A DNA stretch of 64,000 bases from an uncultured Pelagibacteraceae bacterium (GTDB lineage: Bacteria > Pseudomonadota > Alphaproteobacteria > Pelagibacterales > Pelagibacteraceae), in NCBI GenBank assembly GCA_902529105.1, contig CABZUW010000002.1, positions 1 through 64,000 of the forward strand. The letters run 5' to 3'. Positions 1 through 8,080 of this stretch are shown one piece after another. The notes below the pieces were generated by a model. The model saw nothing but the letters and a program-made list of their open reading frames with translations, searched no databases and was not told where the DNA came from. The first letter of the stretch is position 1; each line of letters starts with the position of its first letter. The position numbers and the translations under genes were made by a program.

Positions 1-408
1 TATATTACTTTTAAAGTATTGTATTTGTTATATATTTTAAATATATTTAAATTAAGATAATATTTTAATAATCAAAGATAAAAAATTAATTTCTTAATAA
101 TTGTTTAAATATGCTTATATTTACTAAAAAATTAAATTAGTAACTAAAATATAGTGTTTTAGACCTTTAAAATTATAGAATTTATCAAAAAATAGGGTAG
201 TAAAAAAGCGTTGAAACTGTTGGTTAGTAGAGCAATGCATTAATTGAATATAGCGTTTAAACGATCATAGAGGGGTCTATTTTAAGTGTTTGCCTAATAA
301 AGGTACAACTAAAGGGCGAAGTACGATATTTTAAAAAAAAAAATATAAAAATAGCCAAAAGCATTGATTTTATTGATTTTTTCAGCTCAAAAAGCTCTAA
401 AAATCCAT

Positions 409-684
409 CTAGATTTTAACTTTTTCCGATCTCAATAATCGGAGTTTCTCCTTAATTCCACCTCTACCTGAATAGCCTCCAAGAGCTCCATCAGATCTAA
501 TCACTCTGTGACAGGGTATTTTTGGGGCATATGGGTTTCTAGCACATGCATTAGCAACTGCACGTGATGATTTAGGGCTTTTTATGCCCAAAGCAACTTG
601 TTTATATGTTTTAACCTTACCTTTAGGAATAGTTTTCAGATATTTCCAAACTTTAATTTGAAATTTAGTTCCTTTAAGTATCAT
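409..684 (-). CDS. Short methylated-DNA--protein cysteine methyltransferase-like protein (MGMT/Ogt catalytic domain)
   Basis: PCHRVIRSDGALGGYSGRGG active-site motif and ARAVANAC-type region; start at 684 (MILKGTKFQIKVW) preferred over 768 because homology begins there. Confidence 0.82.
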   Translation of the reverse strand: MILKGTKFQIKVWKYLKTIPKGKVKTYKQVALGIKSPKSSRAVANACARNPYAPKIPCHRVIRSDGALGGYSGRGGIKEKLRLLRSEKVKI

Positions 685-739
685 GTGTTGGGAAAACCCT
701 GTTTCCTTGTACCTTTTCAGGCACAAAGAACAGTAGTTT

Positions 740-873
740 TGGCACGTCGTTTTAGGCGCTACCGCCATGCCTTGCCACTCCGCTATTTTAGCGCTACTCC
801 GCAGAGCTTTCTGCCCCCTGGGCTTGAACCTCTCGGTTTTTCCCCAGTCGGTCAGTTAAGAGTTGCCTCTTAA
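740..873. other. GC-rich patch of consecutive hairpins; candidate structured RNA, regulatory leader or recombination-associated DNA
   Basis: Perfect stems: GGCG-CTAC-CGCC 755-766 (inside TGGCA 740-744/TGCCA 773-777), CGCTA-TTT-TAGCG 781-793, GCAGA-GCTT-TCTGC 801-814, AACC-TCTC-GGTT 827-838 (inside CTGGG 818-822/CCCAG 843-847), TTAAGAG-TTGC-CTCTTAA 856-873. Confidence 0.5.
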
Positions 874-961
874 GTTAAATTCACTTTATAAGATTATGTT
901 AAATGATGTTATCACTTAATAATTGATTATTTAAGTTACTCACATTGTTAATAAAAATACG

Positions 962-1126
962 TTAATTCATCAATAAAAAGAGTAAAACAAAAATACTTAA
1001 GAAAAAAACCCCAAAAATAAGCATTAATACTCTATTTTTTCCTTGATTAGATAATTTTCCCCAGTAATGCATAGAAACAAACAATACCGCCATTACACCA
1101 AGCCCAATTAATAAATATTTTGGCAT
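962..1126 (-). CDS. Small hydrophobic membrane protein (54 aa), unknown function
   Basis: Manual translation MPKYLLIGLGVMAVLFVSMHYWGKLSNQGKNRVLMLIFGVFFLSIFVLLFLLMN; two hydrophobic segments; below the length cutoff of the ORF track. Confidence 0.5.
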   Translation of the reverse strand: MPKYLLIGLGVMAVLFVSMHYWGKLSNQGKNRVLMLIFGVFFLSIFVLLFLLMN

Positions 1127-1147
1127 TTTTAACTTTAACTTATTAGG

Positions 1148-1176
1148 TTGACATTTAAAATGTGATATATTATAGT
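1148..1176 (+). promoter_or_regulatory. Candidate sigma70-type promoter of the integrase
   Basis: TTGACA (1148-1153), 17-nt spacer, TATAGT (1171-1176), directly upstream of the integrase ATG at 1208. Confidence 0.6.
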
Positions 1177-1202
1177 TTCCGATAATTAATGGTTATCGGA
1201 AA
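1176..1202. repeat. Perfect 10-bp inverted repeat, 7-nt spacer (candidate operator or recombinase core site)
   Basis: TTTCCGATAA-TTAATGG-TTATCGGAAA. Confidence 0.8.
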
Positions 1203-1207
1203 AATAT

Positions 1208-2125
1208 ATGAATGAGTTAATAACTGACGTTAAAAACCTAGAAATTGAAACTTTAAAGAATTTAAAAAATTCTAAGGCTCATAACACATTAAGGGCTTAT
1301 CAAGCTGATTTTAGAGATTTCTCAGCTTTTTGTGCCAAGAATGGACTAAACTCATTACCAAGTGAGCCAAAAATTATAGCAATTTACCTCACTCATCTTA
1401 GCTCATTTTCAAAGTATAGCACTTTAAAAAGGAGATTAGCCTCAATAAAGGTTATTCATAAATTAAAAGGTCATTATATAGATACAAAACATCCAATAAT
1501 TACTGAAAATTTAATGGGTATAAAAAGGAAAATGGGTGTTAAACAAACAGCTAAAAAACCGTTATTAATCAATGATTTAAAATCTATAGTTAAAGTAATT
1601 AATGAGGAAAAAAATAACTTTAAGAGATTACAAAATAAAGCATTATTGCTAATTGGATTTTCCGGTGGATTTAGACGATCGGAACTTGTTTCGATAGAGT
1701 ATGATGATTTAGATTTTGTTACAGAAGGTGTTAAAATAATTGTTAGGCGCTCAAAAACTGATCAAACTGGCCTAGGAATGACAAAAGCTATCCCCTACTT
1801 TGATAATAAAAACTATTGTCCAGTTACGTCTCTTAAAACCTGGATCAATTTTTCAAAAATAAATAATGGGAAAATATTTAATATATCTGACAAAACTGTA
1901 GCTTTAACAATTAAAAAGTACGCTTTATTAGCTGGATTAGACCATAATAGATATGCAGGACACAGTTTAAGATCTGGTTTCGCGACATCAACAGCAGAAA
2001 CTGGAGCTGATGAAAGAAGTATAATGGCAATGACAGGTCATAAAACAACACAAATGGTTAGAAGATATATCCAAGAATCAAATTTATTTAAAAATAACGC
2101 CTTAAATAAAATATCAAATGAGTAG
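1208..2125 (+). CDS. Tyrosine recombinase/phage-type integrase
   Basis: R..H-x-x-R..H..Y catalytic set: GFRRSELV, HSLRSGFAT, GHKTTQMVRRYIQ; N-terminal SAM-like DNA-binding domain (NTLRAYQADFRDF). Confidence 0.93.
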   Translation: MNELITDVKNLEIETLKNLKNSKAHNTLRAYQADFRDFSAFCAKNGLNSLPSEPKIIAIYLTHLSSFSKYSTLKRRLASIKVIHKLKGHYIDTKHPIITENLMGIKRKMGVKQTAKKPLLINDLKSIVKVINEEKNNFKRLQNKALLLIGFSGGFRRSELVSIEYDDLDFVTEGVKIIVRRSKTDQTGLGMTKAIPYFDNKNYCPVTSLKTWINFSKINNGKIFNISDKTVALTIKKYALLAGLDHNRYAGHSLRSGFATSTAETGADERSIMAMTGHKTTQMVRRYIQESNLFKNNALNKISNE

Positions 2126-2651
2126 AACTACAAGATATTTAGAGACTAAGAATTGTAATAGATGCAAATCAAATAAAAATTTTAACGATTTTAGAATGGT
2201 AAAGCCTTTAATGTCAGGTCCAAATAAAGGAAAAAAAATTGGATGGACTGATGTAAAGGGAAAAACTAGGTTTTCAATATGTAAGATTTGCGAAAATTCT
2301 GGGTTCATGAAAAGATACCGGCTTAATCCATATAATCAACTGTTCCATAACTTTAAAAAAAGAGCTTCTTTTGCAAAAGTACCATTTGAGCTTACAAAAG
2401 ATGAAATGAAAATTAAATTTGAGAAAAGTGGAGATAGATGTCCAGTTTTTGGTTTTAAGTTTATCAAAAATGCAACAAAAGATAATCGTGATTACGCTCC
2501 TTCATTAGATAGAATTAATCCAAAAGAAGGCTATACAAAAGAAAATACCATTGTTGTAAGTATGCTTGCAAACAGAATAAAAACTGATGCGAAAATCGAA
2601 GATATTGGAAAAGTTTATAAATTTTATAAATCATTAATAAAAAAAAATTAA
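2118..2651 (+). CDS. HNH-like nuclease with N-terminal four-Cys zinc ribbon
   Basis: CNRC...CKIC ribbon; C-terminal CPVFGFKF...PSLDRINPKEGYTKENTIVVSMLANRIKTDA resembles phage HNH proteins; overlaps the integrase stop by 8 nt. Confidence 0.65.
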   Translation: MSRTTRYLETKNCNRCKSNKNFNDFRMVKPLMSGPNKGKKIGWTDVKGKTRFSICKICENSGFMKRYRLNPYNQLFHNFKKRASFAKVPFELTKDEMKIKFEKSGDRCPVFGFKFIKNATKDNRDYAPSLDRINPKEGYTKENTIVVSMLANRIKTDAKIEDIGKVYKFYKSLIKKN

Positions 2652-2656
2652 TATTT

Positions 2657-3523
2657 ATGTTAAAGAGAAATAAAGAAGTTTCTATTGTTATCATATCTCA
2701 TAAAAGTAAAAAAAAAGTTTTAAATTTGTTAAAAAATATATCTAATGATTTCAAAATAATTATAATTGAGAATTCTTCAGATAAATCAATAGAAAGTGAA
2801 TTATCTAAACATAAGAAAAACTTACAAATAATATTTTCTGAAAATAATGGTTATGGAAGTGCAATAAATTTAGCAAGGACATATGTTGCTACAAAATACT
2901 TTTTTGTTTTAAATCCTGATATGCAAAAAATTGATGATAAATTAATCAGTTTTTTTTATGAATCAGCAAAAGAATTAAATGATAATTTTGGAGCTTTGGG
3001 ACCTAGATTTGAAAATGTAAGTGAGAAATCACATAGACAATCGGATATAAATGAAAAATATGGACAGATAGAATCGATAAGTGGATCTGCTATGTTCTTT
3101 TGCACTACAGTATTTGACAAAAATGGAGGATTTGATGAAAATTTCTTCCTTTATTTTGAAGAAACTGATTATTGTTTTAGATCAAATAAAAATAACTTTA
3201 AGATTTACCAAGTAAACTCTCAAAAAGTATATCATGCAATTGGTACATCGGTTGAAATAACAAGTGAAGAGGATTTAAATAAGCTTAAAAATTTATATGC
3301 ATGGCATTTTATTTGGTCAAAATTTTATTATTTTAAAAAACATTATGGTTTTTTAATTTCGATGCTATATTTTTTGCCGATATTATTTAGGACCAATATA
3401 AAGATTATTTATTTTAGAATTTTATCCGAACACAAAAAGATGAAAAAATACAAGATAAGAAATGATGCATTATTGAGTTCCATAAAAGGTGAAAAATCTT
3501 ATAAAAGAATAAATAATTTTTAA
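2657..3523 (+). CDS. Family 2 glycosyltransferase (rhamnosyltransferase-like)
   Basis: SIVIISHKSK N-terminus, NNGYGSAIN, GGFDENFFLYFEETDYCFR motif. Confidence 0.85.
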   Translation: MLKRNKEVSIVIISHKSKKKVLNLLKNISNDFKIIIIENSSDKSIESELSKHKKNLQIIFSENNGYGSAINLARTYVATKYFFVLNPDMQKIDDKLISFFYESAKELNDNFGALGPRFENVSEKSHRQSDINEKYGQIESISGSAMFFCTTVFDKNGGFDENFFLYFEETDYCFRSNKNNFKIYQVNSQKVYHAIGTSVEITSEEDLNKLKNLYAWHFIWSKFYYFKKHYGFLISMLYFLPILFRTNIKIIYFRILSEHKKMKKYKIRNDALLSSIKGEKSYKRINNF

Positions 3524-4239
3524 GAAATAGTTTTTTTTTTAAATTTACCCATTAATTTTTTTTTAAAAAAGAAAATATTTTGTCTTAAATTTTCACCAAT
3601 AATGATCGTATATATATATGTTAAAATTTTTCTTAATTTCTTTCTTTTAAACAAAATTTCTAGTTTTTGTGGTATATTATTCAAAATATCACTTTTTTGT
3701 TCAAAACCTCTAATTCCTACAAAATAAAGATCATAACTATTGACATTATAAAAGAAAAAATGATTAGAAAAAATTTTTTTTAAATCAAAATTTTTAATAA
3801 AATCTCTTTTAGTCAAATTTAAATAATAATCATCTTTGTTACCTGGTGATTGCCAATTTCCAGATCTTTTAGTCCCATGCTCTACTCGTCCGGTAGAGGC
3901 TACAGAGATTACTATAAAAGAGTTTGCTTTAGATATTTGACACATTTTCTCAAATATAACTTTCCAATCTTTAGCATGCTCAAAACACTCACATGAGATT
4001 ATGATGTCGAAACTTTTGTTGAGTTTATCAATATTTACACCATTAAGGACTAAATCAACATTAGGACCTTTTTCTAGGTCAATTCCAACATATTCCTTAC
4101 TAAAATTAAATAAATTCCTTATATTTCCATTTACATCAAGACTACCAATTTCGAGAACATCTATGTCTTTATTAAAACTATTTTTTATATAAAATTCTTT
4201 AAATTCTTTGATAAAATTTATTTGATCAATATGAGACAT
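3520..4239 (-). CDS. Class I SAM-dependent methyltransferase
   Basis: VLEIGSLDVNGN, YVGIDLEKGPNVD, FDIIISCECFEH motifs. Confidence 0.75.
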   Translation of the reverse strand: MSHIDQINFIKEFKEFYIKNSFNKDIDVLEIGSLDVNGNIRNLFNFSKEYVGIDLEKGPNVDLVLNGVNIDKLNKSFDIIISCECFEHAKDWKVIFEKMCQISKANSFIVISVASTGRVEHGTKRSGNWQSPGNKDDYYLNLTKRDFIKNFDLKKIFSNHFFFYNVNSYDLYFVGIRGFEQKSDILNNIPQKLEILFKRKKLRKILTYIYTIIIGENLRQNIFFFKKKLMGKFKKKTIS

Positions 4240-4278
4240 GAAATAAGATTAGTTTATAACAATTTAATTTAATTTAAT

Positions 4279-5079
4279 ATGAAATTTTTAAACAAAAATT
4301 TTAAGGAATTAGAAACTTTTGCTAAATCTAAAAATAAAGAATATATAAATAGTTCTCCATTCCCTCACATAGTTATTGATAATTTTTTTAATGAAAACAT
4401 GCTTAATGATATATTAAGCGAATTTCCAAAAAATTTAGATAATATTGGATATCAATATAAAACTAAAGTTGAGCAAAAAAAATTTACTTTAAATGATAGT
4501 AAGCTATTATCTGAAAATACTAGTAACTTTATAAATTTTTTAAATTCACAAATTTTTTTAGATTTTTTGCAAACCCTTACAGGTATTAATGAAAAACTTC
4601 AATCTGATCCATATTTACAGGGTGGTGGTTTACATGAACTTAGAAATGATGGTTATTTAAATGTTCACGCTGATTTCAATATACATCCAACTTTAAAATT
4701 GGATCGAAGATTAAATATTTTAATTTATTTAAATAAAAATTGGGAAGATGAATTTGGCGGTAATTTACAGCTTTGGAATCAGGACATGACAAAGTGTGAA
4801 AAAAAAATTATTCCTATTTTTAATAGAATGGTTATTTTTTCTACTACAGATTTTTCTTATCATGGTAATCCTGACAAGATTAATTGCCCCAAGGATCAGA
4901 GTAGAAAATCAATTGCGATGTATTACTATTCAAATGGAAGACCTGCACATGAAAGAAAACTTGGTGCTCATTCAACTATTTTTAGAAAAAGGCCCGAATC
5001 TGATGATCCAGACGGCAATATTGAGTTTAAGAAATTATTTGGAAAAATTTATTATCGAAGTAAAAAAAAAATAAATTAA
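4279..5079 (+). CDS. 2OG-Fe(II) oxygenase (prolyl-4-hydroxylase-like)
   Basis: HADFNIHP...RRLNILIYLNKNWEDEFGGNLQLW...FSYHGNPD; H-x-D plus distal H pattern. Confidence 0.75.
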   Translation: MKFLNKNFKELETFAKSKNKEYINSSPFPHIVIDNFFNENMLNDILSEFPKNLDNIGYQYKTKVEQKKFTLNDSKLLSENTSNFINFLNSQIFLDFLQTLTGINEKLQSDPYLQGGGLHELRNDGYLNVHADFNIHPTLKLDRRLNILIYLNKNWEDEFGGNLQLWNQDMTKCEKKIIPIFNRMVIFSTTDFSYHGNPDKINCPKDQSRKSIAMYYYSNGRPAHERKLGAHSTIFRKRPESDDPDGNIEFKKLFGKIYYRSKKKIN

Positions 5080-5090
5080 GTATCATCTAT

Positions 5091-5963
5091 TTACTTATAC
5101 AATTTTGAATTAAATATTTTTAGGTAAATAAAATTTAATTTACATATTATTAACTCTAAATAGAATTGAATATTTTTTTTAGGATTTGATAGTTCTCCAT
5201 CATATATACTATCAGACCTTAAATAATGTTTTTTAAAGAATTTAAATGTTATACCCCATTTCAATAAAAAAATTTTTCCACCTTTACTACCAGACTCTGT
5301 TTTAATTGTAGGGTGATTTTTATATTTTCGTGTAACTACAGATCCAAAATGATAAACTTTACATTTACTAAGACCTTTAAATATTCTAACCCCTTCTCTC
5401 CAAAGTTTCATATTTAAATCAGGGTCTGAGCCAGTTCCTGGATAAAATTCTTCACTAAAACCTCCTACTTTATTCCATATTTCTTTATGTATAAGGTGTG
5501 GAGCCCAGGTTGATCCTTGAAAATCGTAATGGTTAATTTTTTCATAATTTTCTAATAATTTTTTTTCATCAAACGTTTCAAAATCAGATCCAGCATCAAA
5601 CTTTAATGGACCATTGTTCATCATTATACCTGATAGATAAAATCTATTATGTCCAATTTTATTTATTTCTTCATTTAAAATTTGATCCCAATTCGGGCAA
5701 AAATAGAAATCATCATGAGAGTAAAGAATGAAATCAAAGTTGGCTTTTTTCGTTGCTTTATTCATTCCTTCACAAATTCCAGCGTTATAATTAGTAAACG
5801 TATATTCTATATTTTCTTTATCTAAATATTCTTTTGTACCATCTTCGCCTAAATTAACATGGGCTATAATTTCATGGTTAAAAATTGAATTCTTTTTAAT
5901 ACTCTCAATACATAGTTTTAGGTAATTAATGTTATTAAATGTCGGAATAATGATAGAGAACAT
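5091..5963 (-). CDS. Family 2 glycosyltransferase
   Basis: FSIIIPTFNNINYLKLCIESI, NAGICEGMNKA, GGFSEEFYPGTGSDPDLNMKLWREG. Confidence 0.85.
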   Translation of the reverse strand: MFSIIIPTFNNINYLKLCIESIKKNSIFNHEIIAHVNLGEDGTKEYLDKENIEYTFTNYNAGICEGMNKATKKANFDFILYSHDDFYFCPNWDQILNEEINKIGHNRFYLSGIMMNNGPLKFDAGSDFETFDEKKLLENYEKINHYDFQGSTWAPHLIHKEIWNKVGGFSEEFYPGTGSDPDLNMKLWREGVRIFKGLSKCKVYHFGSVVTRKYKNHPTIKTESGSKGGKIFLLKWGITFKFFKKHYLRSDSIYDGELSNPKKNIQFYLELIICKLNFIYLKIFNSKLYK

Positions 5964-5968
5964 TTATA

Positions 5969-8080
5969 TTATTCCCAAAGATACTTATTTTTGTATTTTA
6001 AATTAAATGTTTTTTGAATTATAAAATTTGCTACATTCTTTGAGTTAAAGTATTTTAAATATTTATTTTTACCATTTTTAGCAATTTTTATTCTAAGTTT
6101 ATCATTTTCATTATACTTATTAATTTTCTTACTTAAATCTTTTATAGAATTGTAAAATACCACTTCATTTTTGTTAAAAAATTTGTTTAGCATTGTTTTT
6201 TTATCAATAAATGTCATTAGCCCGTTCCCAATCAGTTGTGTTATTCTATCACTTGAATAATATTTTGTAGATGGTCCTTGACTTAAATTAATTCCCATTT
6301 TTGAGTTTAGCAAAGCGTTTTTAAAATTATCAGCCCACACAGGTTGCTTATTTTTATATCCATAAAAATCATATTTAATATTAGGGGTAATCTTAATTAA
6401 TTTATCTAAAAAGTGTTCTCTTTTGTCTACTTTACCTTTTTTAAGTATACCTCGATGAACTCCATGCGACATAGCAAAAAAAACATCACTTTTTGGATTT
6501 TTGTTGTTATAAACTTCAAGATTTTCAAATGATTGATCAGCGGGATTAGGAATATAAAAAATTTTATTATTTTTAGGGAATTTTAGAATATCTGGAGAAG
6601 TTGTACAGAAACTACAATCAACAAAGTCAATTTTATCCAAAAATCTCTTTTTATTACTTTTCCAATCATTATCCATTCTGTCCAAAAACCATTGAGCAAT
6701 TTTTATATGTGGATATGTTTCTCTTATGAATTTTAAGGTTTCTTTTTTAATTAAATCAGCATGTCCTAAAACTATAAGATCAGGTAAATAATTAGATATT
6801 ACCTCTAACAATTTTTTATTTAACGTTTTTGATCCATCAAAGTCTCTAATTGATCTATAATAGCTTACAATATCTCTGTCACTTAGTGTTAATACACTAT
6901 GATTTAATCTCACAAAACCATTATTTATTCTTCTTCCAGTGTTATAGAAAAGTCTACCATTATGTCTTTCATTAAAATTTGTAATATGAAGAATTTTAAA
7001 TTTTGTTTTTTTTGTTTTTACACTCTCAATTTTTTTTTGAATTATCAAAGACCTATATAAGTCAATCTGTCTACATACAAATTTATTCGTTAAATAAAAG
7101 TTTTCTAAAGAACTTTTTTGTAATTTTAATCTTTTTTTATTGTTTTCAATTAAATTGGATAATTCTTTGTAAAGAGCATTTTGATTAAGTTTTTTAAGTA
7201 TAATTGCATTTGTTACTGTCTCGGGTAAGCCTCCACGATTACTAATTATCACTGCACATCCCCTACTTGATGCCTCTAAACTCGTACGTCCGAAAGGTTC
7301 CTGCCATCTCGAACATACGACAGTAACACTTGATTTCTTGAAATTATTTAAAACAACTTCATGTGGCTTAAATCCCATTAATTTTAAATTTTTATGTTTA
7401 TAAAAAAGTTTCTCTCTAGGCTCATCTCCAAAAACATTTGATTTCCAGTCTGGGTATTTATCTAGTATTTTTACTATTGCTTCACCAAATATATCGTATC
7501 CTTTTGCTCTATTTAGCTTACCCACGAATGTTATTAATTTATCTTTTTTTTTTAAATTTATTTTTACTTTGTTGGTTGATTGATAAATAACTAATAATTT
7601 TTTTGATTTAAAATATATTTTATTCATTCCAGTTAAAAATCTTTTTTTTGACCATTCACTATTGAAAATAATTCTTTCAACTTTAGATAATATATTTAAT
7701 CTATCCATTATTTTTTTTGATCCATTCATTTCAAGTGGATCATTATGAAAGTAAAGTACTAATTTGGATTTAACATTATTAAAAATAGTATTAATATATG
7801 AGGGTCTATTATGTATTTCAATTATATCTGAATTTCTTTTTCTTTCCTCTCTTAGGAAATTATCAACGTATATTTTACTAGAACTTTGAAATAACTCTTT
7901 ATTAAATGGTAAATTAATATAATTTTTTAATAATTTTCTTTTATAATTTGTGCTTCCGTAAATAAAAATTTTATTTTTAAATTTGCTTGCTTTTGTTGTA
8001 TCTTTTACGTAAATCGAAACTGCACCTGGATAATCAGGTGAAAAATTTTCTTTATATGGTAAAAGTATTGCAATTTTCAA
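5969..8080 (-). CDS. Two-domain glycosyltransferase: N-terminal GT4 domain plus C-terminal CgeB-like GT domain
   Basis: N-terminal VGKLNRAKGYDIF...EPFGRTSLEASSRGCAVIISNRGGLPE; C-terminal second Rossmann-type half with INLSQGPSTKYYSSDRITQLIGNGLMTFID. Confidence 0.75.
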   Translation of the reverse strand: MKIAILLPYKENFSPDYPGAVSIYVKDTTKASKFKNKIFIYGSTNYKRKLLKNYINLPFNKELFQSSSKIYVDNFLREERKRNSDIIEIHNRPSYINTIFNNVKSKLVLYFHNDPLEMNGSKKIMDRLNILSKVERIIFNSEWSKKRFLTGMNKIYFKSKKLLVIYQSTNKVKINLKKKDKLITFVGKLNRAKGYDIFGEAIVKILDKYPDWKSNVFGDEPREKLFYKHKNLKLMGFKPHEVVLNNFKKSSVTVVCSRWQEPFGRTSLEASSRGCAVIISNRGGLPETVTNAIILKKLNQNALYKELSNLIENNKKRLKLQKSSLENFYLTNKFVCRQIDLYRSLIIQKKIESVKTKKTKFKILHITNFNERHNGRLFYNTGRRINNGFVRLNHSVLTLSDRDIVSYYRSIRDFDGSKTLNKKLLEVISNYLPDLIVLGHADLIKKETLKFIRETYPHIKIAQWFLDRMDNDWKSNKKRFLDKIDFVDCSFCTTSPDILKFPKNNKIFYIPNPADQSFENLEVYNNKNPKSDVFFAMSHGVHRGILKKGKVDKREHFLDKLIKITPNIKYDFYGYKNKQPVWADNFKNALLNSKMGINLSQGPSTKYYSSDRITQLIGNGLMTFIDKKTMLNKFFNKNEVVFYNSIKDLSKKINKYNENDKLRIKIAKNGKNKYLKYFNSKNVANFIIQKTFNLKYKNKYLWE

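Follow-up and report, generated by a model that had tools for sequence, protein, structure and literature searches.

The GC-rich hairpin patch near the start of the window, as we call the whole 64,000-nucleotide stretch of DNA analysed here, is with virtual certainty a copy of the IMES-2 RNA (Rfam RF02035). The copy lies at positions 739-880 on the minus strand and matches the full covariance model (positions 1-141 of 141) with a cmscan score of 151.6 bits (E 1.2e-39), well above the family's gathering threshold of 54.7 bits. With our own model, R1, it scores 154.5 bits. Rfam scans at the curated threshold and at permissive settings give one match at the patch, IMES-2, and no other Rfam match appears in window positions 1-6000 even at E ≤ 1. 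A preliminary description of this DNA had found no likeness to tmRNA, 6S, SRP or RNase P and had proposed a comparison with Rfam; IMES-2 is indeed the only match. The same description had singled the patch out as GC-rich in an AT-rich region, and this is borne out. GC content is 0.53 at 739-880 vs 0.28 across the window and peaks here within the 64 kb; all 142-bp stretches with equal or higher GC start at 682-743, overlapping IMES-2.

IMES-2 is a known and already catalogued family, to which the window copy adds a new member that shares the sequence, the consensus structure over the full model and the marine host, here a SAR11 (Pelagibacter) bacterium. The family was reportedly found in marine environmental DNA by Weinberg et al. 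in 2009, as an abundant, functionally uncharacterised RNA, and to our knowledge no function has been assigned to it since it was catalogued. Among the papers accessible to our literature search, none was found that discusses IMES-2. IMES-1 (RF02034) belongs to the same marine naming series; it has no match in 131 Pelagibacter genomes, and the control genomes gave none either. The Rfam covariance model of IMES-2 has 141 positions, cannot hold a pseudoknot and leaves terminator and promoter elements outside. The contribution of the present analysis is the anatomy of the gene, its host range and the pseudoknot, although a pseudoknot may already have been described in 2009.

The patch had been proposed to encode a structured minus-strand RNA that carries two GNRA loops. 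Both the strand of the cmscan match and strong covariation agree with this. The minus-strand fold of 720-900 reaches -57.5 kcal/mol (z = -2.9), a value equalled by 1 of 200 shuffles; the plus-strand fold of the same segment has z = -1.4. Covariation, which the preliminary description had recommended examining, is pronounced. Across 46 distinct copies and 60 consensus pairs, 94% of cells hold standard pairs, and two-sided changes occur in 30 of the 60 pairs. None of 500 shuffles, which ignore relatedness among copies, reaches the observed pairing, and slid registers are 31-41% paired.

The RF02035 consensus helices are formed and covary in homologs. Helix P1 (856-873, minus strand), capped by a GCAA tetraloop, is paired in all 46 relatives, with a two-sided change in one pair, and the P2/P3 helix with its internal loops and GAGA tetraloop (811-855, minus strand) has eight pairs with such changes. 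Helix P4 (776-807, minus strand; columns 74-81 and 97-104 of alignment A1) carries a large loop, has 98.1% of its cells paired and covaries on both sides in 8 of 8 pairs. Helix P5, also with a large loop (741-771, minus strand; columns 111-119 and 133-141), shows two-sided changes in three pairs and is kept at all loci. What is conserved is the helices and tetraloops, the pseudoknot and the linker GGCAGAAA, which does not vary. At the level of aligned homologs, the comparison demonstrates that IMES-2 is an autonomous RNA structure under selection. A reading of the patch as coding sequence is rejected in view of the strong covariation, and the open reading frame at 598-873 is a mechanical reading only.

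The finer structural claims made for the patch fared unevenly. The two GNRA-capped stem-loops, TTAAGAG-GCAA-CTCTTAA and AACC-GAGA-GGTT, are present, as is the direct repeat ACTCCGC at 777 and 796. These two stem-loops are what stands of the five perfect hairpins reported, whereas the other three (GCAGA..TCTGC, CGCTA..TAGCG and GGCG..CGCC) are particular to the window copy. The complementary pentamers TGGCA (740)/TGCCA (773) and CTGGG (818)/CCCAG (843) can all be found, but the TGGCA/TGCCA closure is again particular to this copy. Relatives break this closure and the three hairpins, all of which clash with the covarying P4 and P5. The patch had been placed at 740-873, but the element is longer, comprising the RNA at 739-880, a terminator that extends to 693 and promoter elements that reach about 954.

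Outside the nested helices, the heptamer AGCGCTA in the P4 loop (789-795, minus strand) pairs with TAGCGCCT in the P5 loop (754-761, minus strand), which holds one bulged base. The contact consists of 7 bp with one bulge, whose position shifts among copies. In the 16 distinct loop pairs (haplotypes) obtained from 254 copies, 109 of 112 pairs are formed. Re-dealing the partners gives an expectation of 100.8 +/- 1.65 pairs, and 0 of 20,000 permutations are as good, with the bulge register free to vary to the same extent in the data and the permutations. When only the four bulge-free pairs are counted, 11 of 20,000 permutations do as well. Compensated loop pairs include AGTGCTA/TAGCAACT (L039) and AGCACTA/TAGTGCTA (L272). 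AGTACTA is partnered by TAGTACT, by TAGTACTA in L293 and by TAGTACTT in L275, and ATCGCTG by TAGCGCAT, TAGCTGAT or TAGCGAGT; in g32 the pair is AGCACTT/TAGTGCTT, with the P4-loop 7-mer set by eye. Compensation between the two large loops, as read from these haplotypes, demonstrates a 7-bp pseudoknot between P4 and P5.

Judged from sequence, window positions 693-880 on the minus strand are a noncoding RNA gene that stands alone, equipped with a promoter region and a terminator of its own. The intrinsic terminator (693-733, minus strand) lies outside the Rfam model and consists of a 14-bp hairpin followed by GGTTTT (z = -4.1), with two-sided changes in 8 of the 14 pairs. The T-run of the window terminator is short. 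Nearly all copies at the MGMT locus run on into a hairpin and T-run, and terminators are strong at all three loci at which IMES-2 occurs, with sequences that are unrelated between loci. The downstream neighbour is an MGMT-like gene (409-684, minus strand) of 91 aa that encodes the DNA-binding/active-site domain (Pfam PF01035, E 5.7e-32). Its start at 684, right after the terminator, is conserved across loci, and the start at 768 given in the ORF list would overlap the RNA.

On the promoter side, a putative -10-like hexamer, TATAAA (885-890, minus strand), keeps its position in relatives, and the transcript probably starts at about 878-880. A promoter-side block, CAATTATTAAGTGATAAC (908-925, minus strand; consensus CAACTAWAAAGTGATAC), recurs upstream of IMES-2 in 211 of 212 distinct regions; with one exception, its GAT core precedes the model start by 31-34 nt. 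Two abutting 9-mers, TTATCCMCR and YTATTCACA, are found with a score of at least 14/18 in 204 of the 212 upstream regions. The 9-mers resemble the DnaA box, whose established consensus is TTATNCACA, and may be DnaA binding sites. The window copy is degenerate at 11/18 and retains a single, poor DnaA-box-like 9-mer, TTATTAACA (946-954, minus strand). The GTGATA of the promoter block and the DnaA-like boxes are absent from 20 of 20 empty MGMT-locus sites. A search for the promoter pattern in IMES-2-negative genomes gave one exact copy (G082), which stands before a LacI-type regulator with no such RNA.

IMES-2 resides in three neighbourhoods. Locus A, with about 130 of 167 distinct loci, consists of a divergent tyrosine recombinase, in many cases a small ORF, IMES-2 and MGMT, and adjoins a variable island of glycosyltransferase genes. 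Locus B, with 34 loci, some of which may come from the sister genera g35 and g36, consists of mnmA, IMES-2 and then a cystathionine-lyase-like gene or others; all g35 and g36 copies examined for neighbours sit there. Locus C is found in two complete g32 genomes, where IMES-2 lies behind a nuclease-like ORF, and the g32 copies are divergent (62-69 bits, or 46-50 bits with R1). The promoter block is kept in each of the three settings, and loci A and B are intact but empty in relatives without IMES-2. The three neighbourhoods, the kept promoter block and terminator, and the intact empty sites together argue that the IMES-2 unit is its own gene. A tree of the RNA is weakly resolved with respect to the number of locus changes. 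The small gene of locus A is interchangeable among relatives (for instance L015, L041, L072 and L073) and is a DUF2938 protein, a short membrane-like ORF of ~60-70 aa or an ORF that by eye looks GNAT-like; in L017 and two other cases at this locus, the small ORF comes after IMES-2, not before it.

These neighbourhoods bear on the earlier view that the RNA leads toward the MGMT gene. As a cis-acting leader or attenuator, IMES-2 would control MGMT read-through at its terminator, which ends a few to ~20 nt before the MGMT start. The geometry at locus A suits such a role, as nearly all genomes there have the terminator directly against the start of MGMT, with no room for a further promoter. However, the unit ends in its own terminator and elsewhere adjoins mnmA or a nuclease-like gene, so that its downstream gene is not constant across the three neighbourhoods. 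Other genes follow the RNA at mnmA and in g32, frequently in the opposite orientation; another ORF intervenes in L017 and a handful of others, and MGMT also occurs without IMES-2. An MGMT leader or riboswitch is rejected because the same unit sits at other loci, and attenuation of MGMT is a very unlikely role, although a local side effect of IMES-2 on MGMT is possible.

The patch had alternatively been read as folded DNA related to the neighbouring integrase. This tyrosine recombinase gene (1208-2125, plus strand; Pfam PF00589) lies divergently oriented upstream of IMES-2, where it borders the variable island, and is not part of the RNA gene. A conserved inverted repeat at 1176-1202 belongs to the recombinase itself, which occurs without IMES-2 in many genomes. 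IMES-2 at mnmA, in turn, lies away from integrases, and in at least one genome with IMES-2 at that locus, G066, no integrase was found. As the two do not always occur together, an att- or attC-like DNA element is rejected, and an origin of the patch as a foreign fragment is not supported.

Of 131 genomes searched in the genus, 94 contain the recombinase. It is single-copy and in most genomes borders the glycosyltransferase island against conserved genes, namely EamA-like and AEC-like transporters and, farther away, rpsI and rplM (named by eye), and it looks like a resident, maybe domesticated, island recombinase. The inverted repeat, TTTCCGATAA-TTAATGG-TTATCGGAAA, lies just upstream of the gene and overlaps the end of the recombinase promoter (TTGACA-17-TATAGT); the window contains no second copy. 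Of 144 distinct regions upstream of the recombinase, 142 contain the pattern GATAA-N5..9-TTATC at a distance of no more than 80 bp. With arms of ~10 bp and a 7-bp spacer, the repeat would suit a core site for the recombinase or an operator for autoregulation. The ORF at 2118-2651 (177 aa) has no Pfam match, and its cysteine pairs and LDRINPKEGYTKENTIVV stretch appear HNH-nuclease-like by eye.

All true IMES-2 matches in named records fall in the Pelagibacteraceae/Pelagibacterales (SAR11), which are marine hosts. IMES-2 was detected in 62 of 200 relatives, all of the same genus, in 198 of 399 genomes of the genus, with exactly one match each among the matches listed, in 140 of 297 genomes of the order, spread over 4 of 11 genera, and in 3 of 385 genomes of the class, all Pelagibacteraceae. 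The resulting percentages are lower bounds because the genomes are incomplete and the large scans used stricter filters. Roughly half of the Pelagibacter species sampled carry IMES-2, and with about half lacking a copy, it does not serve a core function. An R1 scan of IMES-2-negative genomes yielded weak matches only, and its first filter is insensitive, since the known g32 copies of 46-50 bits were lost as well. Pattern hits in Bradyrhizobium, Streptomyces and other taxa fail the IMES-2 profile and are due to chance. A phage origin is likewise rejected: five pattern hits on viral contigs fail the profile, a stricter pattern has 0 matches on viral contigs, and phage records give nothing.

The clean presence and absence at sites, the transcription unit that moves as a whole and the recombinase beside one locus would also be expected of a small mobile or selfish RNA cassette, maintained by its own spread and not by a host function. 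However, more than one copy per genome was never seen among the matches listed, the unit has no ORF, and ~250 copies occupy just three locations. Given also its absence from the viral contigs and phage records and the strong selection on its structure, a selfish cassette is highly improbable.

On balance, we lean slightly toward IMES-2 being an independent, trans-acting RNA that binds protein. Its transcript, made from a promoter of its own, would be ~190 nt long and act in trans, sequestering or scaffolding a protein rather than pairing with mRNAs with the help of Hfq. A protein partner is favoured by conservation that lies mainly in the fold, the GNRA loops and the linker, not in a free seed, and by the lack of a recognisable Hfq in the hosts (PF17209; 0 of 12 Pelagibacteraceae genomes, with a positive Caulobacter control). 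The tandem DnaA-box-like sites of most relatives suggest that transcription may follow DnaA or growth state. The short T-run and degenerate DnaA-like boxes of the window copy count against this model. A trans-acting sRNA that regulates mRNAs by base pairing without Hfq would likewise have its own promoter and terminator, and a single-copy, optional gene is typical of sRNA regulators. However, the invariant stretches of IMES-2 are nearly all within helices, tetraloops or the pseudoknot, and the failure to detect Hfq in those 12 genomes also speaks against pairing, which we consider rather unlikely.

A protein-binding IMES-2 would resemble 6S RNA (RF00013) in its way of working only, being Hfq-independent and single-copy. 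In structure, IMES-2 differs from 6S RNA: it has no RF00013 match, folds into multiple hairpins with a loop-loop pseudoknot, lacks the long duplex with a central bubble and has unpaired ends. 6S RNA itself was not found in the hosts (0 of 20 genomes of the genus, with a positive Caulobacter control), although a divergent 6S could escape the search. The likeness to CsrB/RsmZ is confined to the proposed mode, a structured RNA that titrates a protein. Unlike those RNAs, IMES-2 is without repeated GGA hairpins, and its two similar loops pair together and are not free binding sites. A more specific scheme for SAR11, in which the tandem DnaA boxes set the transcription of IMES-2 and the pseudoknotted RNA titrates a protein, so that a global regulator is tied to replication or to growth state in cells without Hfq and 6S, is speculative and quite unlikely.

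These results assign IMES-2 to a host family and delimit the whole gene; they also supply a three-dimensional contact and natural presence/absence pairs among related strains. The DnaA-box-like pair provides a first regulatory hypothesis for this RNA. SAR11 is among the most abundant groups in the ocean, and with Hfq and 6S missing from the genomes searched, it would be an unusual setting for RNA regulation.
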